From positions 6,696,001 to 6,760,000 of the forward strand of contig NZ_JAUSUZ010000001.1 in NCBI RefSeq assembly GCF_030813715.1: a stretch of 64,000 nucleotides of DNA, written 5' to 3'. A model generated the notes under the pieces. That model had not been told where the DNA came from, searched no databases, and worked only from the letters and a program-made list of their open reading frames with translations. This DNA comes from Catenuloplanes indicus (GTDB lineage: Bacteria > Actinomycetota > Actinomycetes > Mycobacteriales > Micromonosporaceae). Both the position numbers and the translations under genes were made by a program. This document shows positions 1 through 14,658 of this stretch, piece by piece. Positions within the stretch are counted from its first letter, which is position 1. The number at the start of each line of letters is the position of its first letter.

Positions 1-326
1 CCAAGGCCGATCAGGCGCACCAGGTCCGGCTGCTCGCGGCCGAGCTGGGCGGTTACGGGATCCGGGTCAACGGCATCAACCCGGACGGCGTGGTCCGCGG
101 GTCCGGCATCTTCGCCGGTGGCTGGGGCGCGAAGCGGGCCGCGGTCTACGGCGTGCCGGAGGAGGAGCTGGGCGCCTACTACGCGCAGCGCACGCTGCTC
201 AAGCGCGAGGTGCTGCCGGAGCACGTGGCGAACGCGGTGTTCGTGCTGACCGCGGGCGAGCTGTCGCACACCACCGGCCTGCACGTCCCGGTCGACGCCG
301 GCGTCGCCGCGGCCTTCCTCCGATGA
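1..326 (+). CDS. Bifunctional rhamnulose-1-phosphate aldolase / short-chain dehydrogenase, C-terminal end (partial)
   Basis: The reading frame is open from base 3 to the stop at 324-326; the start lies before the window. The visible 107 residues are the C-terminal end of a short-chain dehydrogenase fold: the GIRVNGINPD strand after the active-site helix, then the variable loop and the closing TGLHVPVDAG segment. The GSGIFAGGWGAKRA loop resembles the dehydrogenase half of the actinobacterial fusion that cleaves rhamnulose-1-phosphate and oxidises lactaldehyde. Overlap of its stop with the rhaB start (ATGA, 323-326) indicates translational coupling in a rhamnose catabolic operon. The aldolase half is not visible, so the fusion is inferred. 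Confidence 0.8.
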   Translation, partial: KADQAHQVRLLAAELGGYGIRVNGINPDGVVRGSGIFAGGWGAKRAAVYGVPEEELGAYYAQRTLLKREVLPEHVANAVFVLTAGELSHTTGLHVPVDAGVAAAFLR

Positions 327-6493: not shown

Positions 6494-7039
6494 TCACAAG
6501 TGGCTGACCTCGTTGAACGCCATCAGCGCGGGCGGCCGGCCGGGCCGGTAGAGGATCGTGGTGAGCCCGCAGTTGACCGCGTTCAATCCGAGCCAGCGCG
6601 GCTCCGGCGCGTCCAGCGCGTCCCGGACGAACCAGCCCACGGTGAACGCGTGCGTGACGATCAGCTCGTGCGTCTCGGTCTCGGCCGGCCGCGCGAATCT
6701 GGCCAGGGCCGCGCGGGCCAGTGCTTCGCCGAGCGCGTACTCCTCCTCGGTGACCTCCGCCAGGAAGTCCTGGAACACGCGCGGCAGCGCGGCCCGGTCA
6801 CCGACCGGCGGGACGTAGTCACCACAGACATCGAGTTCCCGCACCGGTACGCCGGGCAGCCGCGACGCGATGATCCGGGCGGTCTCCGCGGCGCGCGGCA
6901 GCGGACCGTGGTGCAGCGACGCGATCGGTAACGCGGCCAGCCGGTCGCCGGTCGCCGCGGCCTGCCGCCGCCCGGTCTCGGTGAGCGCGCCGTCGGCCGC
7001 CTCACCGTGCCGGACCAGGTGCACGTAACGCGCTGTCAT
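6494..7039 (-). CDS. Histidine phosphatase family protein (phosphoglycerate mutase-like)
   Basis: 181 residues from ATG 7039. The catalytic RHGE is at about residues 9-12, right after the first strand (YVHLVRHGEA). The second phosphate-binding arginine lies in the LPRAAETARII helix, and the second catalytic His in ELIVTHAFTVGWF. This is the compact branch-2-like histidine phosphatase layout, acting on a small phosphorylated metabolite or a phosphoprotein; the substrate is unknown. It is transcribed divergently from the AAA-type regulator gene. Confidence 0.85.
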   Translation of the reverse strand: MTARYVHLVRHGEAADGALTETGRRQAAATGDRLAALPIASLHHGPLPRAAETARIIASRLPGVPVRELDVCGDYVPPVGDRAALPRVFQDFLAEVTEEEYALGEALARAALARFARPAETETHELIVTHAFTVGWFVRDALDAPEPRWLGLNAVNCGLTTILYRPGRPPALMAFNEVSHL

Positions 7040-7216
7040 GATGTTGTCTTCATCCCTTTCGGACGGTGGGGTGCACGAAAAGTGACGGCCGCGACCGGGG
7101 ATGATGACTCTGGGTATCTGAAAGCCGAGTTTTCTGTAACCCCCGGTATGACTTTCGGTAGATTGAACCCGATGGCCGGTCACTCTACGGTATGTCGAGT
7201 GAATGCCGTGAGATCA

Positions 7217-9346
7217 ATGAGCGCCCTCCCGATCCGCTCCGTCGCGGACCGGCTGCGCCCGTCGTACCGGGCGGCGTTCCTGGGGCGGCAGCCGGAGATC
7301 ACGGCGTTCCACGAGCTGCTGCGGCCGGACAGTCCACACGCGCTGCTGATGGTCGAGGGACCGGCCGGGATCGGCAAGACCGCGCTGCTGGCCCGGTTCG
7401 CCGACGAGGCGCGCGCGGCCGGCCGGCCGGTGCTGCGCGTCGACGGCCGGGACGGCGACGAGGAACGCGCGGGTACGGCCGGGCCGGGCGCGCCCGTGGT
7501 GCTGGTCGACGACGCGGACCGGATCCCGGCGCTGGAGGCGTGGCTGATCGACCGGCTGCTGCCGCGGCTGCCGATGGACGCGCGCGTGGTGCTGGCCGCG
7601 CGGCGGTCGCCGGTCACCCGGTGGAGCGCGGACCCGGGCTGGTTCCAGGCGATCCGTCCGCTGCCGCTCGGCCCGCTGAGCCGGATGGACTCGAGTTCGC
7701 TGCTGCACCGGTTCGGCGTCGCGCCGCAGCTGCGCCGGGAGATGATCGCGTTCGCCGGTGGGAACCCGTCCGTGCTCGCGCTCGCGGCCCGTACCGTGCA
7801 GACGTCCGGCCGGGACGGTGACGGCTGGGTGCCGACGCTGGAGCTGCTGGACCGGGTGGTCGAGGCGTGCGCCGGCCCGTTCCCGTCCGGCACCCACCGG
7901 CGTGCGCTGCAGGCCGCCGCGCAGTCCATCGTGATCACCGAGGATCTGCTGCGCGCGGTGGTCGGCGACGAGGCCGCCGCGATGTTCGAGTGGCTGCGTA
8001 CCCAGTCGTTCATGCACGCGTCGCCGTTCGGCCTGCTCCCGAACGGCGCGGTCCGCGCCTCGGTGGACGCGCAGCTGGCCCGGCGGGACCCGGACGGCCA
8101 CCGCGCGCTGCACGACCGGATCCGCGACTACCTGTTCGCGCGCGCCCGGGTCGCGGCCGGTGACGCGATCATGCCGGCCATGGTGATGCTCGGCTACCTG
8201 CACCGCCGGTTCGGCGCGACCGCGTTCTACGACCGGATCCTCGGCATGCCGACCGGCGCGCCGGAGGACTCGGCCACGGGACCGGCGACCAGCGGCGTGT
8301 ACGAGGACGCGGTCGACCCGGCCGAACTGCCCGCGCTGCTGGCGCTCAGCGACGAGCCGGAGATGGTGGCGTTCTGGTTCGCCCGGCAGCCGTCCGCGTT
8401 CCGGGCGTACCGGCGGGAGGACCCGATCGCGCTGCTGGACATCGCGCGCGCCGGGCCGTTCCACCCGCTGGAGCCGCGGGCCCGGCGCGGCGAGCTGATC
8501 GGCTTCTCCGCGCTACTGCGGCTCGGCGTGGAGGACGTGGCCGCGTGCGAGCACGACCCGGTGCTGGCGGCGGCGTGGGCGTACACGCACACGGCCGCGC
8601 CGCTGACCGCCGGTGAGGAACTGGACGTGCTCCGATTCGTGGCCCGGCCCGCGACCGGCGCACCGGCGGCCCAGCGCCCGGCCGGTGAACGCCTGGCCGA
8701 TCCGCTGGAGCGCCGCCGCGCCGCCGCGGTCCAGGACCTCGCGGTCTACCGGGTGCTCGGCCGCGTGGTCCGGGCCGATCATCCGGCGTGGACGTTCCTG
8801 GCGACCGCCGACCCGGCGCCGTGGGCCGGCGCGCTGCGCTACTTCGACATGCCGGGCACCGGGCTGACCGTGGCCGGCGGCGGCCGGGACCGGCACCTGT
8901 TCGCGCACGACTGGCGCGCGGCGCCGCCGGCGGAGTGGCTGGCCGCGAACTCCCGGCGCCCGGTCGAGGAGCTGCCGCCGCGCGCGGGCACCGGCCTGGC
9001 CGTGCTGACCCGAGCCGAGTTCGACACCGAGGTCCGGTCCGCGCTGCGCGCCTGGCGCCGGCCGGAGCGGCTGGCGGACAGCCCGCTGCTGCGCACCGGC
9101 CTGGTCCGCGACGCGGACGACCCGGTCGAGGCGCTGCGCCGCACGCTGGCCTCGGCGGTGGAGGCGCTCGGCCGGCAGAGCCGGACCGCGAAACAGCACC
9201 GCGTGCTGACCACCACGTTTCTGAGCGGCGCGCCGACCCAGGAGGCGGCGGCACGCCGGCTGGGGCTGCCGTTCAGCACGTACCGACGTCACCTCACGGT
9301 CGGCCTGAGCACGCTCTGCGACCGCCTCTGGCTCGGCGCGGACTGA
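7217..9346 (+). CDS. AAA/STAND-type ATPase with C-terminal helix-turn-helix
   Basis: About 709 residues from ATG 7217 (in-frame starts at 7172 and 7208 are possible). The N-terminus FLGRQPEITAFHELL leads to Walker A GPAGIGKT (about 48-55) and Walker B VVLVDDAD (about 93-100), the layout of the ATPase domain of LuxR/LAL and other STAND regulators. The middle is alpha-helical and alanine-rich. The last 45 residues (LSGAPTQEAAARRLGLPFSTYRRHL) look like a sigma-region-4/LuxR-type helix-turn-helix. It is probably an ATP-dependent transcriptional or signalling regulator; ligand and target are unknown. It ends just upstream of the tRNA leader region but has no evident link to it. Confidence 0.78.
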   Translation: MSALPIRSVADRLRPSYRAAFLGRQPEITAFHELLRPDSPHALLMVEGPAGIGKTALLARFADEARAAGRPVLRVDGRDGDEERAGTAGPGAPVVLVDDADRIPALEAWLIDRLLPRLPMDARVVLAARRSPVTRWSADPGWFQAIRPLPLGPLSRMDSSSLLHRFGVAPQLRREMIAFAGGNPSVLALAARTVQTSGRDGDGWVPTLELLDRVVEACAGPFPSGTHRRALQAAAQSIVITEDLLRAVVGDEAAAMFEWLRTQSFMHASPFGLLPNGAVRASVDAQLARRDPDGHRALHDRIRDYLFARARVAAGDAIMPAMVMLGYLHRRFGATAFYDRILGMPTGAPEDSATGPATSGVYEDAVDPAELPALLALSDEPEMVAFWFARQPSAFRAYRREDPIALLDIARAGPFHPLEPRARRGELIGFSALLRLGVEDVAACEHDPVLAAAWAYTHTAAPLTAGEELDVLRFVARPATGAPAAQRPAGERLADPLERRRAAAVQDLAVYRVLGRVVRADHPAWTFLATADPAPWAGALRYFDMPGTGLTVAGGGRDRHLFAHDWRAAPPAEWLAANSRRPVEELPPRAGTGLAVLTRAEFDTEVRSALRAWRRPERLADSPLLRTGLVRDADDPVEALRRTLASAVEALGRQSRTAKQHRVLTTTFLSGAPTQEAAARRLGLPFSTYRRHLTVGLSTLCDRLWLGAD

Positions 9347-9369: not shown

Positions 9370-9399
9370 TTGCTATTCTCCGCGGCGGGCTATTAACGT
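9370..9399 (+). promoter_or_regulatory. Candidate promoter of the leader-peptide/tRNA operon
   Basis: TTGCTA (9370-9375) and TAACGT (9394-9399) are 18 bases apart and fit a vegetative actinobacterial promoter with a start near 9406. The -10 lies in a locally AT-rich stretch containing two TATTAAC units (9391-9397, 9399-9405). No comparable promoter is visible between the downstream terminator and the first tRNA, so tRNA transcription would depend on this site. Confidence 0.42.
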
Positions 9400-9422
9400 A
9401 TTAACCAGCTTCGGCGAGCCGG

Positions 9423-9482
9423 AGTGACAGCTGTTTAAGTGACAGCTATTGAAGTGGCAGCTGTTTGAGTGACAAAAGCTGA
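9423..9482 (+). repeat. Four tandem 15-bp repeats in the leader 5' region
   Basis: Units start at 9423, 9438, 9453 and 9468, each beginning AGTG(A/G)CA. The first three share AGTGACAGCTGTTTA-like sequence with one to three changes; the fourth is diverged. Each of the first two or three contains an AGCT-centred palindrome, so neighbouring units can form alternative RNA hairpins (AGCTGT with ACAGCT). They end where the leader-peptide ribosome binding site begins. They could be operator sites, an RNA element or a decayed repeat; function unknown. Confidence 0.8.
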
Positions 9483-9493
9483 GGGAGACGGTC

Positions 9494-9616
9494 ATGTCGG
9501 GTCAGGTGCTTCGCGCGGCGCGGTCCGCGGTGGCGTTCCCGGCCCGGTCCTGTCCCGCGGCCCTTGGCTGTCTATATCTCTCCCTCCTTGCGCCTCGGGG
9601 CGGTTGTCCGAGCTGA
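9494..9616 (+). CDS. 40-residue leader peptide of the tRNA operon (Leu/Cys/Tyr control codons)
   Basis: ATG 9494 has a strong GAGGGAGA ribosome binding site 6 bases upstream, and the ORF ends at TGA 9614. Codons 24-32 read Leu-Gly-Cys-Leu-Tyr-Leu-Ser-Leu-Leu (CTT, GGC, TGT, CTA, TAT, CTC, TCC, CTC, CTT; 9563-9589). Its six Leu codons never use CTG, the codon expected to dominate in such GC-rich DNA, and all its Cys codons are TGT and its only Tyr codon is TAT. The ORF is followed after 22 bases by an intrinsic terminator and then by tRNA genes for Leu, Leu, Tyr and Cys. I infer a regulatory leader whose translation is sensed, not a functional peptide. Confidence 0.72.
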   Translation: MSGQVLRAARSAVAFPARSCPAALGCLYLSLLAPRGGCPS

Positions 9617-9645
9617 CCAGCGTCAGCGCGCGACCACGCCGCCCC
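9597..9645 (+). promoter_or_regulatory. Candidate antiterminator pairing
   Basis: GGGGCGG (9597-9603), inside the last codons of the leader ORF, is exactly complementary to CCGCCCC (9639-9645), the 5' arm of the terminator, and a G-U pair can extend it to 8 bp. The two foldings are mutually exclusive. A ribosome reaching the stop codon at 9614 would mask 9597-9603 and allow the terminator; a ribosome stalled on the early control codons would leave it free. A weaker upstream partner, CCGC plus CCC (9555-9563), could sequester GGGGCGG as in classical attenuators. Confidence 0.6.
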
Positions 9646-9675
9646 TCCCGCAACGGGATCGGGCGGTTTTTCTTT
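9639..9675 (+). terminator. Intrinsic terminator (attenuator) before the tRNA array
   Basis: Outer stem CCGCCC (9639-9644) with GGGCGG (9661-9666), inner stem TCCCG (9646-9650) with CGGGA (9654-9658), loop CAA, followed at once by TTTTTCTTT (9667-9675). A T-tract terminator of this classical form is uncommon in high-GC actinomycetes. It lies 22 bases after the leader stop and 41 bases before the first tRNA, so the tRNAs are reached only by read-through. Confidence 0.85.
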
Positions 9676-9716
9676 GCCCGCCCACATTCACTTTCCGCAA
9701 TCCTCTATTTCATCAT

Positions 9717-9790
9717 GCCTTCGTATCCCAATTGGTAGAGGAACGGCGTTGAGGGCGCCGGTGTTGCGCGTTCGAATCGCGCCGGAGGCA
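9717..9790 (+). tRNA. tRNA-Leu(GAG)-like with short variable loop
   Basis: Acceptor GCCTTCG (9717-9723) pairs with CGGAGGC (9783-9789), discriminator A at 9790, no encoded CCA. The D arm has a 3-bp stem TCC/GGA and the loop CAATTGGTAGA typical of tRNA-Leu. The anticodon stem is CGGCG/CGCCG with loop TTGAGGG, anticodon GAG (9751-9753), reading CUC and CUU. The variable region is only GTGTT. The T arm is GCGCG/CGCGC with loop TTCGAAT. Bacterial tRNA-Leu normally has a long variable arm; this one keeps Leu-like D and anticodon loops and A73 but is type I in shape. Charging identity is unproven. Confidence 0.8.
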
Positions 9791-9804
9791 CGTAACAAAA
9801 GAGG

Positions 9805-9879
9805 GCCCGGGTAGCCCAACTGGCAGGAGGCACGCCGTTCAGGGCGGCGACAGTGTGCGTTCGAATCGCACCCCGGGCA
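9805..9879 (+). tRNA. tRNA-Leu(CAG)-like with short variable loop
   Basis: A perfect acceptor stem GCCCGGG (9805-9811) with CCCGGGC (9872-9878), discriminator A. D stem GCC/GGC with loop CAACTGGCAGGA. Anticodon stem CGCCG/CGGCG, loop TTCAGGG, anticodon CAG (9840-9842), reading CUG. The variable loop is ACAGT, again without the long arm expected for tRNA-Leu. T arm GTGCG/CGCAC with loop TTCGAAT. It lies 14 bases after the first tRNA and has the same architecture, so the loss of the variable arm is shared rather than a single accident. Confidence 0.8.
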
Positions 9880-9892
9880 CGTACCACCCCGC

Positions 9893-9974
9893 GCGGGCGC
9901 GCCGACGCTGGAGAGTCGGGGGCGGCTGTAAACCGTCCGCATCGTCTGAGCAGGTTCGAATCCTGCCGCCCGCA
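9893..9974 (+). tRNA. tRNA-Tyr(GTA)
   Basis: Acceptor GCGGGCG (9893-9899) with CGCCCGC (9967-9973), discriminator A. D stem CCGAC/GTCGG with loop GCTGGAGA. Anticodon stem GGCGG/CCGTC (one G-T pair), loop CTGTAAA, anticodon GTA (9928-9930). The variable region is 12 bases, as expected for a class II tRNA-Tyr. T arm GCAGG/CCTGC, loop TTCGAAT. Position 8 is C instead of the nearly universal T, and the D loop lacks the usual A14, so it is divergent but fully foldable. It starts 13 bases after tRNA-Leu(CAG). Confidence 0.82.
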
Positions 9975-9987
9975 CGTACGTCCCCGC

Positions 9988-10061
9988 GTCCGCATGTCCG
10001 AGAGGCCAGGAGCGCGACTGCACATCGCGTCACACCGGTTCGAATCCGGTTGCGGACTCCA
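9988..10061 (+). tRNA. tRNA-Cys(GCA)
   Basis: Acceptor GTCCGCA (9988-9994) with TGCGGAC (10051-10057), discriminator T at 10058 as required for tRNA-Cys, then an encoded CCA (10059-10061). D stem TCC/GGA with loop GAGAGGCCA. Anticodon stem CGCGA/TCGCG, loop CTGCACA, anticodon GCA (10020-10022). T arm ACCGG/CCGGT, loop TTCGAAT, identical in all four genes. Position 37 is C rather than the purine that is nearly universal there. Last gene of the array, 13 bases after tRNA-Tyr. Confidence 0.85.
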
Positions 10062-10710: not shown

Positions 10711-11676
10711 ATGGACGTGGTGACGGCGGAGCGGATCATTCGGGTCGGTCGCGGGTTCGCGCTGGCCAAGGCGCTGTTCGTGGCATCGGAGGCGGGCCTC
10801 TTCGAGGCCGTCGGCGCCGGTGCGACGCTGGAGCGGATCGCGGAGCGGGTCGGCATGCCGGAGCGTTCGGTACGGCGGATCTGCCAGCTGCTGGCGGACG
10901 GCGGGCTGCTGGCCCACGAGGACGGGCGGTACCGCAACGCGCCGGACGCGGAGGCGTTCCTGTCCGGCCGCGGGCCCGCGGACCTACGGCCGATGCTGCG
11001 GTTCTGGGACGTGGTCAGCTATCCGGGGTGGACGGAGGCGGAGCGGGCGTACCGGACCGGCGAGGGCGTCTACCCGCCGCTGTCGCCGATGCAGGTGGAG
11101 GCGTACGAGTCGGGCGTGGCCGTGGTCACGGCCGCGGCGGCGGGCGCGCTGGCCACGTCGTACGACTTCGGCGCGCACAAGCGGGTGCTGGACGTCGGCG
11201 GCGGGCTCGGCACGTTCTTGCTGCCGATCCTGGCGCGCGCGCCGCACCTGACCGGCGTGCTGGTCGACCTGCCCGAGGTGGCGGAGCTGGCGGCGCGGCG
11301 GCTGGCCGGGGAGCCGCGGATCGAGGTGGCCGGTGCGGACGTGCTGACCGATCCGCTGCCGGCCGGGTGCGACGTGATCGTGGTGGCGAACGTGCTGCAT
11401 CTACTGACCCCGGAGCGCTGCGTGGCGCTGCTCGGCCGGTTGCGCGAGGTGGCCGAGCCGGGCGGTCGGCTGTTGCTGGTCGACTGGTGGCGGGACCCGG
11501 TGGAACCGCACCCGGACAGTGTGAGCGGCGCGTCCGAGTTCCTGATGTTCAGCGGCGGCGACACGTACGAGGCGAGCGAGGCGGCGGACTGGCTGACCGG
11601 CACCGGATGGCGGCCGCTGGAGGTGCGCGAGGTGCTGCCGCCGACCGGCGTCCTGATCGCGGAGCCGGTCATGTGA
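10711..11676 (+). CDS. O-methyltransferase family protein with winged-helix dimerisation domain
   Basis: 321 residues. The N-terminal 90 residues form a winged-helix-like dimerisation domain (AKALFVASEAGLFEAVG, then VGMPERSVRRICQLLADGGLL), as in methyltransferases of secondary metabolism. The SAM-binding motif I is VLDVGGGLGTFLLPIL (about 156-171), the acidic motif is GVLVDLPEV, and VANVLHLL corresponds to the post-IV region. It probably methylates a small aromatic or polyketide-type acceptor, but no biosynthetic cluster surrounds it. Its stop overlaps the end of the convergent pflA gene by 8 bases. Confidence 0.83.
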   Translation: MDVVTAERIIRVGRGFALAKALFVASEAGLFEAVGAGATLERIAERVGMPERSVRRICQLLADGGLLAHEDGRYRNAPDAEAFLSGRGPADLRPMLRFWDVVSYPGWTEAERAYRTGEGVYPPLSPMQVEAYESGVAVVTAAAAGALATSYDFGAHKRVLDVGGGLGTFLLPILARAPHLTGVLVDLPEVAELAARRLAGEPRIEVAGADVLTDPLPAGCDVIVVANVLHLLTPERCVALLGRLREVAEPGGRLLLVDWWRDPVEPHPDSVSGASEFLMFSGGDTYEASEAADWLTGTGWRPLEVREVLPPTGVLIAEPVM

Positions 11677-12403
11677 CGGTCAGCCCGCGGGCGCGGAAGA
11701 CGTCGCGGGCCGCCTCCACCGCCTCGTGCGCCGGCGGCACCGTGTCACGCAGTGGGAACTCCACGCCGATCGCGTCGTACTTGTGCCGCCCGAGCCGGTG
11801 GAACGGCAGCACCTCGACGCGCTCGACCGTGGGCAGCTCCGCGACGAAGTCGGCGATCCCGGCGACGTTCGCCGGCTCGTCGGTCAGGCCGGGGACCAGC
11901 ACGAACCGTACCCACATGGGCTTGTGCAGGGAGGCCAGCCGGCGGCCGAAGCGCAGCGTCGGCGCGATCTCACCGGTGCCGGTGACCCGGCGGTAGGTGG
12001 CCGGGTCCCACGACTTGACGTCCAGCAGCACCAGGTCGACCGCGTCCAGCAGCGTGTCCGAGGCCCGGTCGCCGTAGAAGCCGGAGGTGTCCAGCGCGGT
12101 GTGCAGCCCGTGCATCTTGCACGCGTGCAGGAACGCCTCGGTGAACCGGGCCTGCTGCAGCGGCTCGCCGCCGCTGAGCGTCACGCCGCCGCCGCTGACC
12201 TCGATGAACCGCTCGTAGCCGCGCAGTACGGCCATCAGCTCGTCCACGGTCATCAGCGTGCCGCTGCGCCGGTACCAGGTGTCGGGGGAGTGGCAGTAGA
12301 GGCAGCGCAGCGGGCAGCCGGCCAGGAACGCTACGAACCGGGTGCCGGGCCCGTCCACGCCGATCGACGTGTCGAACGAGTGGACGGACCCCTGGATGTT
12401 CAC
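11669..12403 (-). CDS. pflA: Pyruvate formate-lyase activating enzyme
   Basis: A 244-residue radical-SAM protein. The cluster-binding motif is C30-x3-C34-x2-C37 in [13 protein letters not shown], followed by the SAM-binding GGEPL. The enzyme uses a 4Fe-4S cluster and SAM to put the glycyl radical on pyruvate formate-lyase. Length is normal. The GTG start at 12403 overlaps the pflB stop (GTGA), so activase synthesis is coupled to pflB translation. It is oxygen-sensitive chemistry and implies function under hypoxia or anaerobiosis. Confidence 0.93.
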
Positions 12404-14658
12404 AGCGACCCGTGGAACGTCCGGGAGACCACGTCCTGCTGCTGCTCCCGGGTCAGCCGGACGAAGTTCACCGCGTAGCCGGAGACCCGCACCGTGAGCT
12501 GCGGGTACTTCTCCGGGTGCTCCATCGCGTCCTCCAGCGTCGCGCGGTCCAGCACGTTGACGTTCATGTGGAAGCCGCCGGTGCCGGTGTAACCGTCCAG
12601 CACGCCGACCAGGTCGGTGATCCGGTCCGCGCGGGTGTGCCCGAGACCGTCCGGCGTGACCGTGCAGGTCAGCGAGATGCCGTCGCGGGCCGAGGCATAC
12701 GGCAGCTTCGCCACCGAGAGCGCGGCCGCGACCAGGCCGTGCTTGTCCCGGCCGTTCATCGGGTTCGCGCCCGGCGCGAACGGCTGACCGGCGCGGCGGC
12801 CGTCCGGGGTGTTGCCGGTGTGCTTGCCGTAGACCACGTTCGACGTGATGGTCAGCACGCTCATCGTCGGCTCCGCGCCCCGGTAGGCCGGCTGCCGCCG
12901 GATCCGCGACATGAACTCCTCGACCAGCCAGGTGGCCATCGCGTCGACCCGGTCGTCGTTGTTGCCGAAGCTCGGGTAGTCACCCTCGATCTCGTAGTCC
13001 ACGGCCAGGCCGGTCTCGTCGCGGATGACGCGGACCGTCGCGTACCGGATCGCGGAGAGGCTGTCCACCGCCACGCTCAGGCCGGCGATGCCGGTGGCCA
13101 GGAAACGGTGCACGGGGTAGTCGTGCAGCGCCATCTCCAGCCGCTCGTACGCGTACCGGTCGTGCATGGCGTGGATGACGTTGAGCGCGTCCACATAGGT
13201 CTCGGCCAGCCAGTCCAGCGTGTGCTCGTACGCCGCCACCACCTCGCCGAACTCCAGCACGTCCGATTCGACGGGCCTGGTGGCGGGCGCGACCTGCTCG
13301 CCGGACATCTCGTCCCGGCCGCCGTTGATCGCGTAGAGCAGCGCCTTCGCCAGGTTCGCCCGCGCGCCGAAGAACTGCATCTGCTTGCCGACCCGCATGC
13401 CGGAGACGCAGCAGGCGATCGCGGTGTCCTCGCCGTACTCGGCGCGCAGCGCCTCGTCGTTCTCGTACTGGATCGCGCTGGTGTCCAGCGACACCTGCGC
13501 GCAGAACCGCTTGAAACCCTCGGGCAGGGTACGGGACCAGAGCACGGTCAGGTTCGGCTCCGGCGCCGGGCCCAGGTTGTAGAGCGTCTGCAGGTAGCGG
13601 AAGCTGGTCCGGGTGACCAGCGGCCGGCCGTCCACGCCCACGCCGCCGATGCTCTCGGTCACCCAGGTCGGGTCGCCGGAGAACAGCGCGTCGTACTCCG
13701 GCGTGCGCAGGAACCGGATGATCCGCAGCTTGATCACGAAGTCGTCGACCAGCTCCTGCGCCTCGATCTCGGTCAGGTCACCGGCCGCGATGTCCCGTTG
13801 CAGGTAGACGTCGACGAACGTGGCGGTCCGGCCGAGCGACATCGCGGCGCCGTTCTGCTCCTTCGTCGCGGCCAGGTAGGCGAAGTACAGCCACTGGATC
13901 GCCTCGCGCCCGTTCGTGGCCGGCCCGGAGATGTCGTACCCGTAGGACGCGGCCATCGCCTTCAGCTCGCGCAGCGCCCTGACCTGCTCGGCCAGCTCCT
14001 CCCGGTCGCGGATCACGTGCTCGGTCGAACGCGCCTGGTCCAGCGCGGCCTTCAGCGTGATCCGCTCGGTGATCAGCCGGTCCACGCCGTAGAGCGCGAC
14101 CCGCCGGTAGTCGCCGATGATCCGGCCGCGGCCGTAGGCGTCCGGCAGGCCGGTGATGATGTGCGAGCGCCGGGCCTTGAGCACCGCCTGCGGGTACGCG
14201 TCGAACACCGCGTCGTTGTGCGTCTTGCGGTACTTCCCGAACGTCTCCCGCACGGCCGGGTCCAGCTCGTACCCGTAGGCCTTCAGCCCGTTCTCCACCA
14301 TCCGCAGGCCGCCGTTCGGCATGATCGCCCGGCGCAGCGGCGCGTCCGTCTGGAGGCCGACGATCAGCTCGTTGTCCCGGTCGATGTACCCGGGCGCGTG
14401 ACTGGTGATCGTCGACGGCGTGCGCGCGTCCACGTCGTAGACGCCGCGCTCGCGCTCCACCGGGAACATCGCCTGCAGCTTCGCCCAGACGTCCAGCGTC
14501 CGGCAGGTCGGGCCGGTGAGGAAGTGCTGGTCTCCCTCGTACGGCGTGTAGTTGTCCCGGATGAACCCGGCCACGTCGACGTCCCGCCGCCAGTCCGAAC
14601 CGGCGAACCCCCGCCACGCGTCCGCGGTCGACGTCCGCGCCTGCACCTGTGCCGTCAT
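12400..14658 (-). CDS. pflB: Formate C-acetyltransferase (pyruvate formate-lyase)
   Basis: A 752-residue glycyl-radical enzyme that converts pyruvate and CoA to acetyl-CoA and formate. The adjacent active-site cysteines are in [11 protein letters not shown] (about C416-C417), and the radical glycine is in RVSGYAVNF (about G727) near the C-terminus, both exactly as in PflB. Length matches the family (about 750-760). It is the first gene of a pflB-pflA pair transcribed leftwards, with a HAD phosphatase gene 106 bases upstream in the same direction. PFL is unusual in organisms generally regarded as obligate aerobes. Confidence 0.95.

Follow-up and report, generated by a model that had tools for sequence, protein, structure and literature searches.

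A predicted leader-peptide attenuator ahead of spare, divergent tRNA genes in Catenuloplanes indicus and its relatives

Introduction

What controls a small cluster of tRNA genes that lies behind a short open reading frame and a terminator? The question is raised by the window analysed here, a stretch of 64,000 nucleotides from Catenuloplanes indicus. A first-pass annotation had proposed that four tRNA genes in it form an operon under attenuation control, in which a leader ORF with Leu, Cys and Tyr codons would sense a shortage of the same tRNAs that are encoded downstream. The available portions of PMC5966550 and PMC12803027 describe tRNA array units of Mycobacterium, its phages and plasmids, in which redundant tRNA genes are clustered and HNH genes lie within or close to the cluster; the latter paper calls the role of tRNA arrays unknown.

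Results and discussion

The features of the locus are as follows.

9370..9399, + strand: promoter-like site read from the sequence, -35 TTGCTA at 9370-9375, -10 TAACGT at 9394-9399, spacer 18
9494..9616, + strand: leader peptide ORF, 40 codons, ATG start, MSGQVLRAARSAVAFPARSCPAALGCLYLSLLAPRGGCPS then stop
9563..9589, + strand: control block, CTT GGC TGT CTA TAT CTC TCC CTC CTT (Leu, Cys, Tyr)
9597..9645, + strand: predicted antiterminator, 9597-9604 pairing with 9638-9645 and enclosing the stop codon and an inner hairpin
9638..9675, + strand: intrinsic terminator, arms GCCGCCC at 9638-9644 and GGGCGGT at 9661-9667, T-tract up to 9675
9717..9791, + strand: tRNA-Leu(gag), short class-I form (ARAGORN; RF00005, 47.5 bits)
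9805..9880, + strand: tRNA-Leu(cag), short class-I form (ARAGORN; RF00005, 45.7 bits)
9893..9975, + strand: tRNA-Tyr(gta) (ARAGORN; best Rfam match RF01852, 39.1 bits, below the cut-off of 47)
9988..10061, + strand: tRNA-Cys(gca) (ARAGORN; RF00005, 47.3 bits)

The leader ORF, the codon block without CTG, the terminator and the four tRNA genes are thus all present where the first-pass annotation had placed them. CTG is absent from the entire leader ORF, whose Shine-Dalgarno match is four bases long, and CTT, CTA, TAT and TGT are rare codons in these genomes. A tRNA cloverleaf was found by ARAGORN in all four genes; three of the four scored above the Rfam cut-off (29 bits for RF00005) in permissive mode, Tyr falling below, and the Rfam fast filters detected Leu(gag) alone. 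No T-box riboswitch was matched by Rfam in the window in either the fast-filter or the permissive search.

Three overlapping 22-nt repeats with 15-nt spacing (AGTGACAGCTGTTTA...) occupy the 5' region of the leader (9423-9474) and were not seen in congeners. Upstream of the array, positions 7007-9346 encode a protein of 779 aa whose AAA/STAND NTPase matches are weak and fall short of the Pfam cut-offs, and a homologue of this gene is also found upstream of the array in four congeners. An operon link between the ATPase gene and the array is not claimed, as G001 and G003 have an intervening gene. A pyruvate-formate-lyase-like glycyl-radical enzyme, adjoining a radical-SAM protein, is encoded at 11669-14658.

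Sixty-two tRNA places were read in the whole genome of the window. As these include Leu(gag) of 85 nt, Leu(cag) of 84 nt, Tyr and Cys besides, the window array is redundant. Its tRNAs are 56-71% identical to the genomic copies of the same anticodon, the two Leu tRNAs being the 56% (gag) and 58% (cag) cases; they are 75 and 76 nt long and have no long variable arm. Such class-I forms of Leu tRNA are unusual. A further short form, of 76 nt, is the sole Leu(tag) among the 62 places (L329, G000:C1:3568230-3568304), against 83-85 nt for the other genomic Leu tRNAs (caa, cag, gag and taa). A relationship of this tRNA to the Leu tRNAs of the array is possible.

Across five genomes of the genus the start, stop and frame of the leader are kept, with lengths of 40, 40, 36, 33 and 29 codons, and the terminator and both Leu tRNAs are also conserved; the surroundings of the promoter-like site could be aligned in four of the five. 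In four congeners the array has a tRNA-Ala(cgc) that is absent from the window array, and the window leader nevertheless has Ala codons. Congener G001 retains Cys and Tyr codons in its leader, with an ARAGORN array of Leu, Leu and Ala only, and G003 retains Cys codons though no tRNA-Cys was found. Much larger arrays exist, of which that of the window is a reduced form.

Such reduction raises the question of whether the arrays are decaying mobile remnants, with tRNAs that are no longer charged and a switch that is a relic. Many arrays are indeed reduced, the larger ones have an HNH gene inside them, and five matches to the regulatory element described below have no tRNA. The conservation of the leader, the terminator and two Leu tRNAs in the genus argues against decay, as do reduced arrays elsewhere, the leaders of which are adjusted to the remaining tRNAs, and we consider this explanation quite unlikely.

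A second tRNA array is present in the genome of the window (L280 5007-6439, about G000:C1:945006-946438). It has tRNAs for Trp Gly Gln Met Ser Arg Pro Ser Val Val, its own leader MTWMSPDMMWQAPQSPVAMAGRPGSSFRGHGVLRGAQRWCGLG and an HNH gene, and is also found in the three congeners examined (G001, G003 and G004). The isotypes are split between the two arrays and the leaders partly follow: Trp and Met, which belong to the second array, are absent from the window leader except for the start codon, and Tyr, for which the first array has the tRNA, is absent from the second leader. The two leaders are not cleanly separated, the second having Leu and Cys and the first Gly, Gln, Ser, Arg, Pro and Val.

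When 61 genomes were searched at the DNA level, 32 had matches; among these are this same locus in four congeners, arrays related to it elsewhere, and some single tRNAs. The arrays of other genera are large, and many of them are Trp-first and hold an HNH gene. Overall, a short leader ORF was seen to precede divergent arrays of 1-37 tRNA genes in Micromonosporaceae and in a second family of the order.

The first-pass annotation implied that homologous arrays should have the leader ORF. Arrays were selected by an HNH-gene scan of named genomes, from which the best 80 of 156 loci were taken, in genera that we take to be Micromonosporaceae. Leaders were called by a rule blind to amino-acid content: the best terminator in the 520 nt upstream, an ORF ending near it and a Shine-Dalgarno match of at least four. 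By this fixed rule 37 of 40 HNH-selected arrays have the leader, and 39 of 40 with shorter upstream windows, the sole array that fails with these too being L121, which has two tRNAs; 22 of 1500 random windows pass the same rule. For the second array of the window genome, L060 and L080 the 520-nt rule had picked the wrong hairpin, an error that shorter windows corrected in each case.

An RNA model of the leader end plus terminator gave matches in 136 of 200 genomes of the family at an E of 1e-4. When 100 of the listed matches were fetched, a tRNA lay within 800 nt in 95 and none in five; these 100 were selected by the element itself and are uninformative on its frequency among arrays. The five without tRNA downstream are L206, L224, L246, L251 and L258, and L186, L191 and L235 have tRNA-Met alone. 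Both kinds could be decayed arrays, arrays with missed tRNAs or other targets.

In a search of the order, 28 of 200 genomes matched: 20 in the family, four in one other family and four weakly elsewhere. The true cases in that other family are G048, G333, G341 and G349. Three of the four weak matches elsewhere were inspected and had no tRNA. A search of the class matched 3 of 296 genomes, all in the family and none elsewhere. Distant forms may be missed because the search model was built mainly from the family and the filters were strict. Five regions with plasmid or phage relatives of the HNH gene were also inspected; three had no tRNA, and two had tRNA clusters without the element by the rule, a call that is void for the first of these, which is incomplete at its start.

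For the statistics, 167 candidates were reduced to 123 leader-array pairs by dropping 13 without a leader, seven with a weak Shine-Dalgarno match, 19 with identical leaders and five without tRNA. Seven of the 13 leaderless candidates were two-gene Ile-Ala chains, which we take to resemble those of rRNA operons. The 123 pairs were filtered to 92 non-redundant ones (pairwise leader similarity below 0.7). L046, placed by hand at its first tRNA, was kept among the 92; the second array of the window genome and the arrays examined later, except L036, are outside them.

The first-pass annotation had also noted that the control block encodes the same amino acids that the tRNAs serve. In the window alone this match is weak. 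The leader holds A, F, G, P, Q, R, S and V besides, none of which the array serves; L, C and Y all occur in the body of 42 of the 92 pooled leaders, and the L+C+Y fraction of the window leader, 0.27, ranks 7 of 92. With Ala included the fraction is 0.52, rank 3 of 92, against a pool mean of 0.27. Across relatives the observation becomes strong: 776 of the 808 array isotypes in the 92 arrays are present in the leader, against 698.5 (sd 5.9) under a null that preserves the richness of each leader and the frequency of each amino acid. Array and leader are concordant in 1187 of 1840 cells (null 1031.9, sd 11.8, z=13.2), and where an array has seven isotypes or fewer, the leader includes 171 of 174 (null 139.3).

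Small arrays illustrate this match. The array Trp-Gln-Tyr lies behind the leader MRRWQYPYLVLTGRRS, Pro-Thr-Ile-Arg-Pro-Val-His behind MITTRRVTVVPTPRPHTIPVIRPTGRWRG, Leu-Ala-Met behind MMHHSTIAALLMTALARGRWRR and Lys-Met-Met behind MLRNKRMKRPDLGRRRG.

It is possible to imagine that such a match is a by-product of shared ancestry and base composition, or of the calling rule, since leaders and arrays are co-inherited and the rule selects ORFs near terminators. The other frames of the same DNA therefore served as a control, with the last six codons of the true frame removed to leave the leader body: z was 14.2 in the true frame and 0.2, 0.1 and -0.2 in the +1, +2 and reverse frames, respectively. 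The match persists, at z=9.5, in 23 leaders with less than 0.40 similarity. Among disjoint nearest pairs with similarity of at least 0.45 (50 pairs), 77 changes were concordant and 7 discordant, and 11 more distant pairs gave 31 and 2; equal-isotype pairs were skipped, and only cells that change in both the array and the leader were counted. Kinship as the sole source of the match is hardly credible against these results, and the claim that leader amino acids follow tRNA identity holds across the pool. The first-pass annotation needs correction on several points, among them that a leader may list up to 20 amino acids and that the set of the congeners includes Ala.

The match is not strict in either direction. 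There are 621 cells in which an amino acid is in the leader only and 411 in which it is in neither, and in L054 a nearly full leader precedes five tRNAs. Of the 38 arrays with tRNA-Lys, 11 have no Lys in the leader; for Met this is so in 8 of 44. Leaders that lack Lys despite a tRNA-Lys in the array are seen in L039, L041, L043, L045, L046, L047, L087 and L113. The last six leader residues alone give z=1.8, so the match sits in the leader body. Coverage is 772 of 808 without the last six codons and 702 of 808 without the last ten; some listed copies are therefore close to the region that must stay free. The order of amino acids in the leader was also compared with the order of the array; the correlation is weak (mean rho 0.12, se 0.05, 72 arrays) and is not claimed.

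The codons of the leaders are matched as well: 928 of 1338 are readable by the array anticodons, where 843.1 are expected from pooled usage (z=5.4), with no excess for Ile, Pro and Val. Rare codons are enriched in leaders relative to 714 long ORFs of the same loci, TAT rising from 6% to 48%, CGA from 4% to 27% and codons ending in A or T from 7% to 20%.

The gene whiB7 is controlled by an attenuation mechanism. The present leaders could, like those of whiB7 and the ABCF resistance genes, be general sensors of translation inhibition by antibiotics, on which a stalled ribosome of any kind would be enough and their composition would be incidental, and uORF attenuators of this sort exist in bacteria according to the available text of PMC9226507 and PMC12121999. 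A sensor of this type predicts no isotype match, no matched changes and no codon-anticodon match, which makes it an improbable explanation of the data above.

The elements needed for switching were then considered. A promoter-like TTGnnn-16..19-TAnnnT lies upstream of 77 of 90 leaders, where mononucleotide shuffles give an expectation of 1.8. The leader end is predicted to pair with the first terminator arm before the second exists (mean P 0.82, shuffled 0.57; above the shuffled mean in 38 of 40), and for the window antiterminator P is 1.00 against 0.33 shuffled. The fold of 9592-9658, from which the 3' arm of the terminator is absent, has a predicted energy of -39.8 kcal/mol, and the antiterminator persists in the best fold with that arm. 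With a ribosome at the stop codon the terminator is predicted at P>0.5 in 92 of 92 cases. With the leader end and both arms free, at equilibrium, the antiterminator is favoured in 30 of 92, the window included, and the terminator in 62. Because the antiterminator wins at equilibrium in only these 30, most cases would need co-transcriptional folding.

The last codon of the leader co-varies with the terminator arm (Fisher 0.0003 and 0.0006, statistics that ignore kinship). GGC before the stop is found with 12 of 29 AG-type arms and 1 of 35 ACG-type arms, and ACG before the stop with 0 of 29 and 11 of 35; 28 arms of other types were outside this test.

The locus therefore has, in its sequence, the short leader ORF with a ribosome-binding site upstream of an intrinsic terminator that is expected of an attenuator, and what its leader codons specify agrees with what the genes behind them would supply. 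A mutually exclusive antiterminator and terminator, the former using the leader end, are predicted. The attenuator reading of the first-pass annotation gains support from the antiterminator predicted without the 3' arm and from the terminator predicted when a ribosome would cover the leader end.

In large arrays such as L044, L037 and L049, a boxA-like motif near TTGAGAACTCCACAGTGGATGG follows Trp and precedes the next tRNA. It occurs in 59 of 92 loci within 9 kb, against one on the reverse strand, and is absent from the window array. Given the role in rRNA-type antitermination that we assume for boxA, it suggests antitermination of that type.

Taken together, it is very probable that a ribosome-mediated transcription attenuator governs the spare, divergent tRNA genes, and that stalling at a listed codon frees the antiterminator. 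Sequence and statistics establish the architecture, the reading frame, the composition match and, as predictions, the alternative pairings; we infer that the leader is translated, that ribosomes stall on it and that read-through follows. A sigma-70-type promoter would be followed by the short leader ORF, the terminator and the tRNA genes. When the leader is read to its stop codon, a ribosome on the last codons would block pairing of the leader end with the 5' arm of the terminator, so that the terminator forms and no tRNAs are made. A ribosome stalled at a codon with a missing or uncharged tRNA would leave the leader end to pair with the 5' arm, and the array would be transcribed. The leader lists the amino acids that the downstream tRNAs serve, as many as 20 in some of the largest arrays, so that a shortage of a replaceable tRNA should switch the array on, other shortages tending to do so less.

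As the output of the switch is tRNA and not amino acids, we lean towards tRNA loss as the natural trigger, caused for example by toxins that cleave tRNA or by defence nucleases, in preference to amino-acid starvation. The leader may then be a checklist of replaceable isotypes, up to 20 amino acids long, on which any loss would induce the whole set, a tRNA-integrity switch to which we would give slightly better than an even chance. The same switch might sense ordinary amino-acid starvation, the spare tRNAs raising decoding capacity with no tRNA damage involved, a proposal that competes with the trigger part of the explanation only. Uncharged and absent tRNA are inseparable by sequence, and the available portion of PMC1262725 predicts that trp operons, trpS and leuS of actinobacteria have leader attenuators ahead of them. 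A starvation response of this kind would, however, supply no amino acids. The array tRNAs, moreover, duplicate the canonical set and are divergent, as would be expected of replacements. Starvation sensing is considered possible, but less likely than tRNA loss.

If tRNA loss is the trigger, the integrity switch would be a self-matched defence against tRNA-destroying enzymes, in which leader-peptide attenuation acts on tRNA genes and the leader and the array co-evolve isotype by isotype. The attenuator itself would offer a regulatory logic for tRNA arrays, which would be produced on need alone, and leader-peptide attenuation, otherwise concerned with one amino acid or a few, would come to cover an evolving list of up to 20. 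The leader of each species is predicted to name the tRNA shortages that should induce its array, and the 123 distinct leader-array pairs form a test set for the evolution of control codons.

Relation to known systems

In the open-access literature, a body from which subscription papers and preprints are mostly absent, no tRNA genes under leader-peptide control were found among the matches listed, and no paper combined a tRNA gene cluster with a leader peptide. The closest regulatory parallels are the trp/his/leu attenuators (trp, trpS and leuS in actinobacteria, as far as the available portion of PMC1262725 describes them), which are alike in their leader control codons and their antiterminator and terminator hairpins. 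Those attenuators regulate enzymes, whereas here tRNAs would be regulated and the control set tracks the isotypes of the array, be they one, a few or all 20.

The tRNA array units of Mycobacterium resemble the present arrays as clustered, redundant tRNAs with HNH genes, and the words "leader" and "attenuat" are absent from the main texts of PMC5966550 and PMC12803027. One Mycolicibacterium plasmid array has no terminator by the rule used here. By definition such units have 20 or more tRNAs; the window array, with four, lies below that number, and homologous arrays reach 37. Phage tRNAs have been proposed, in the available text of PMC10264068, to replace those cut by anticodon nucleases, which is the same spare role as that proposed here. 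Unlike the phage tRNAs, the present arrays are chromosomal and have a predicted sensor of tRNA supply. A T-box riboswitch detects whether one specific tRNA is charged and acts on a terminator. In comparison with T-boxes, sensing in the present arrays would use a translated ORF, and would cover several amino acids at once.
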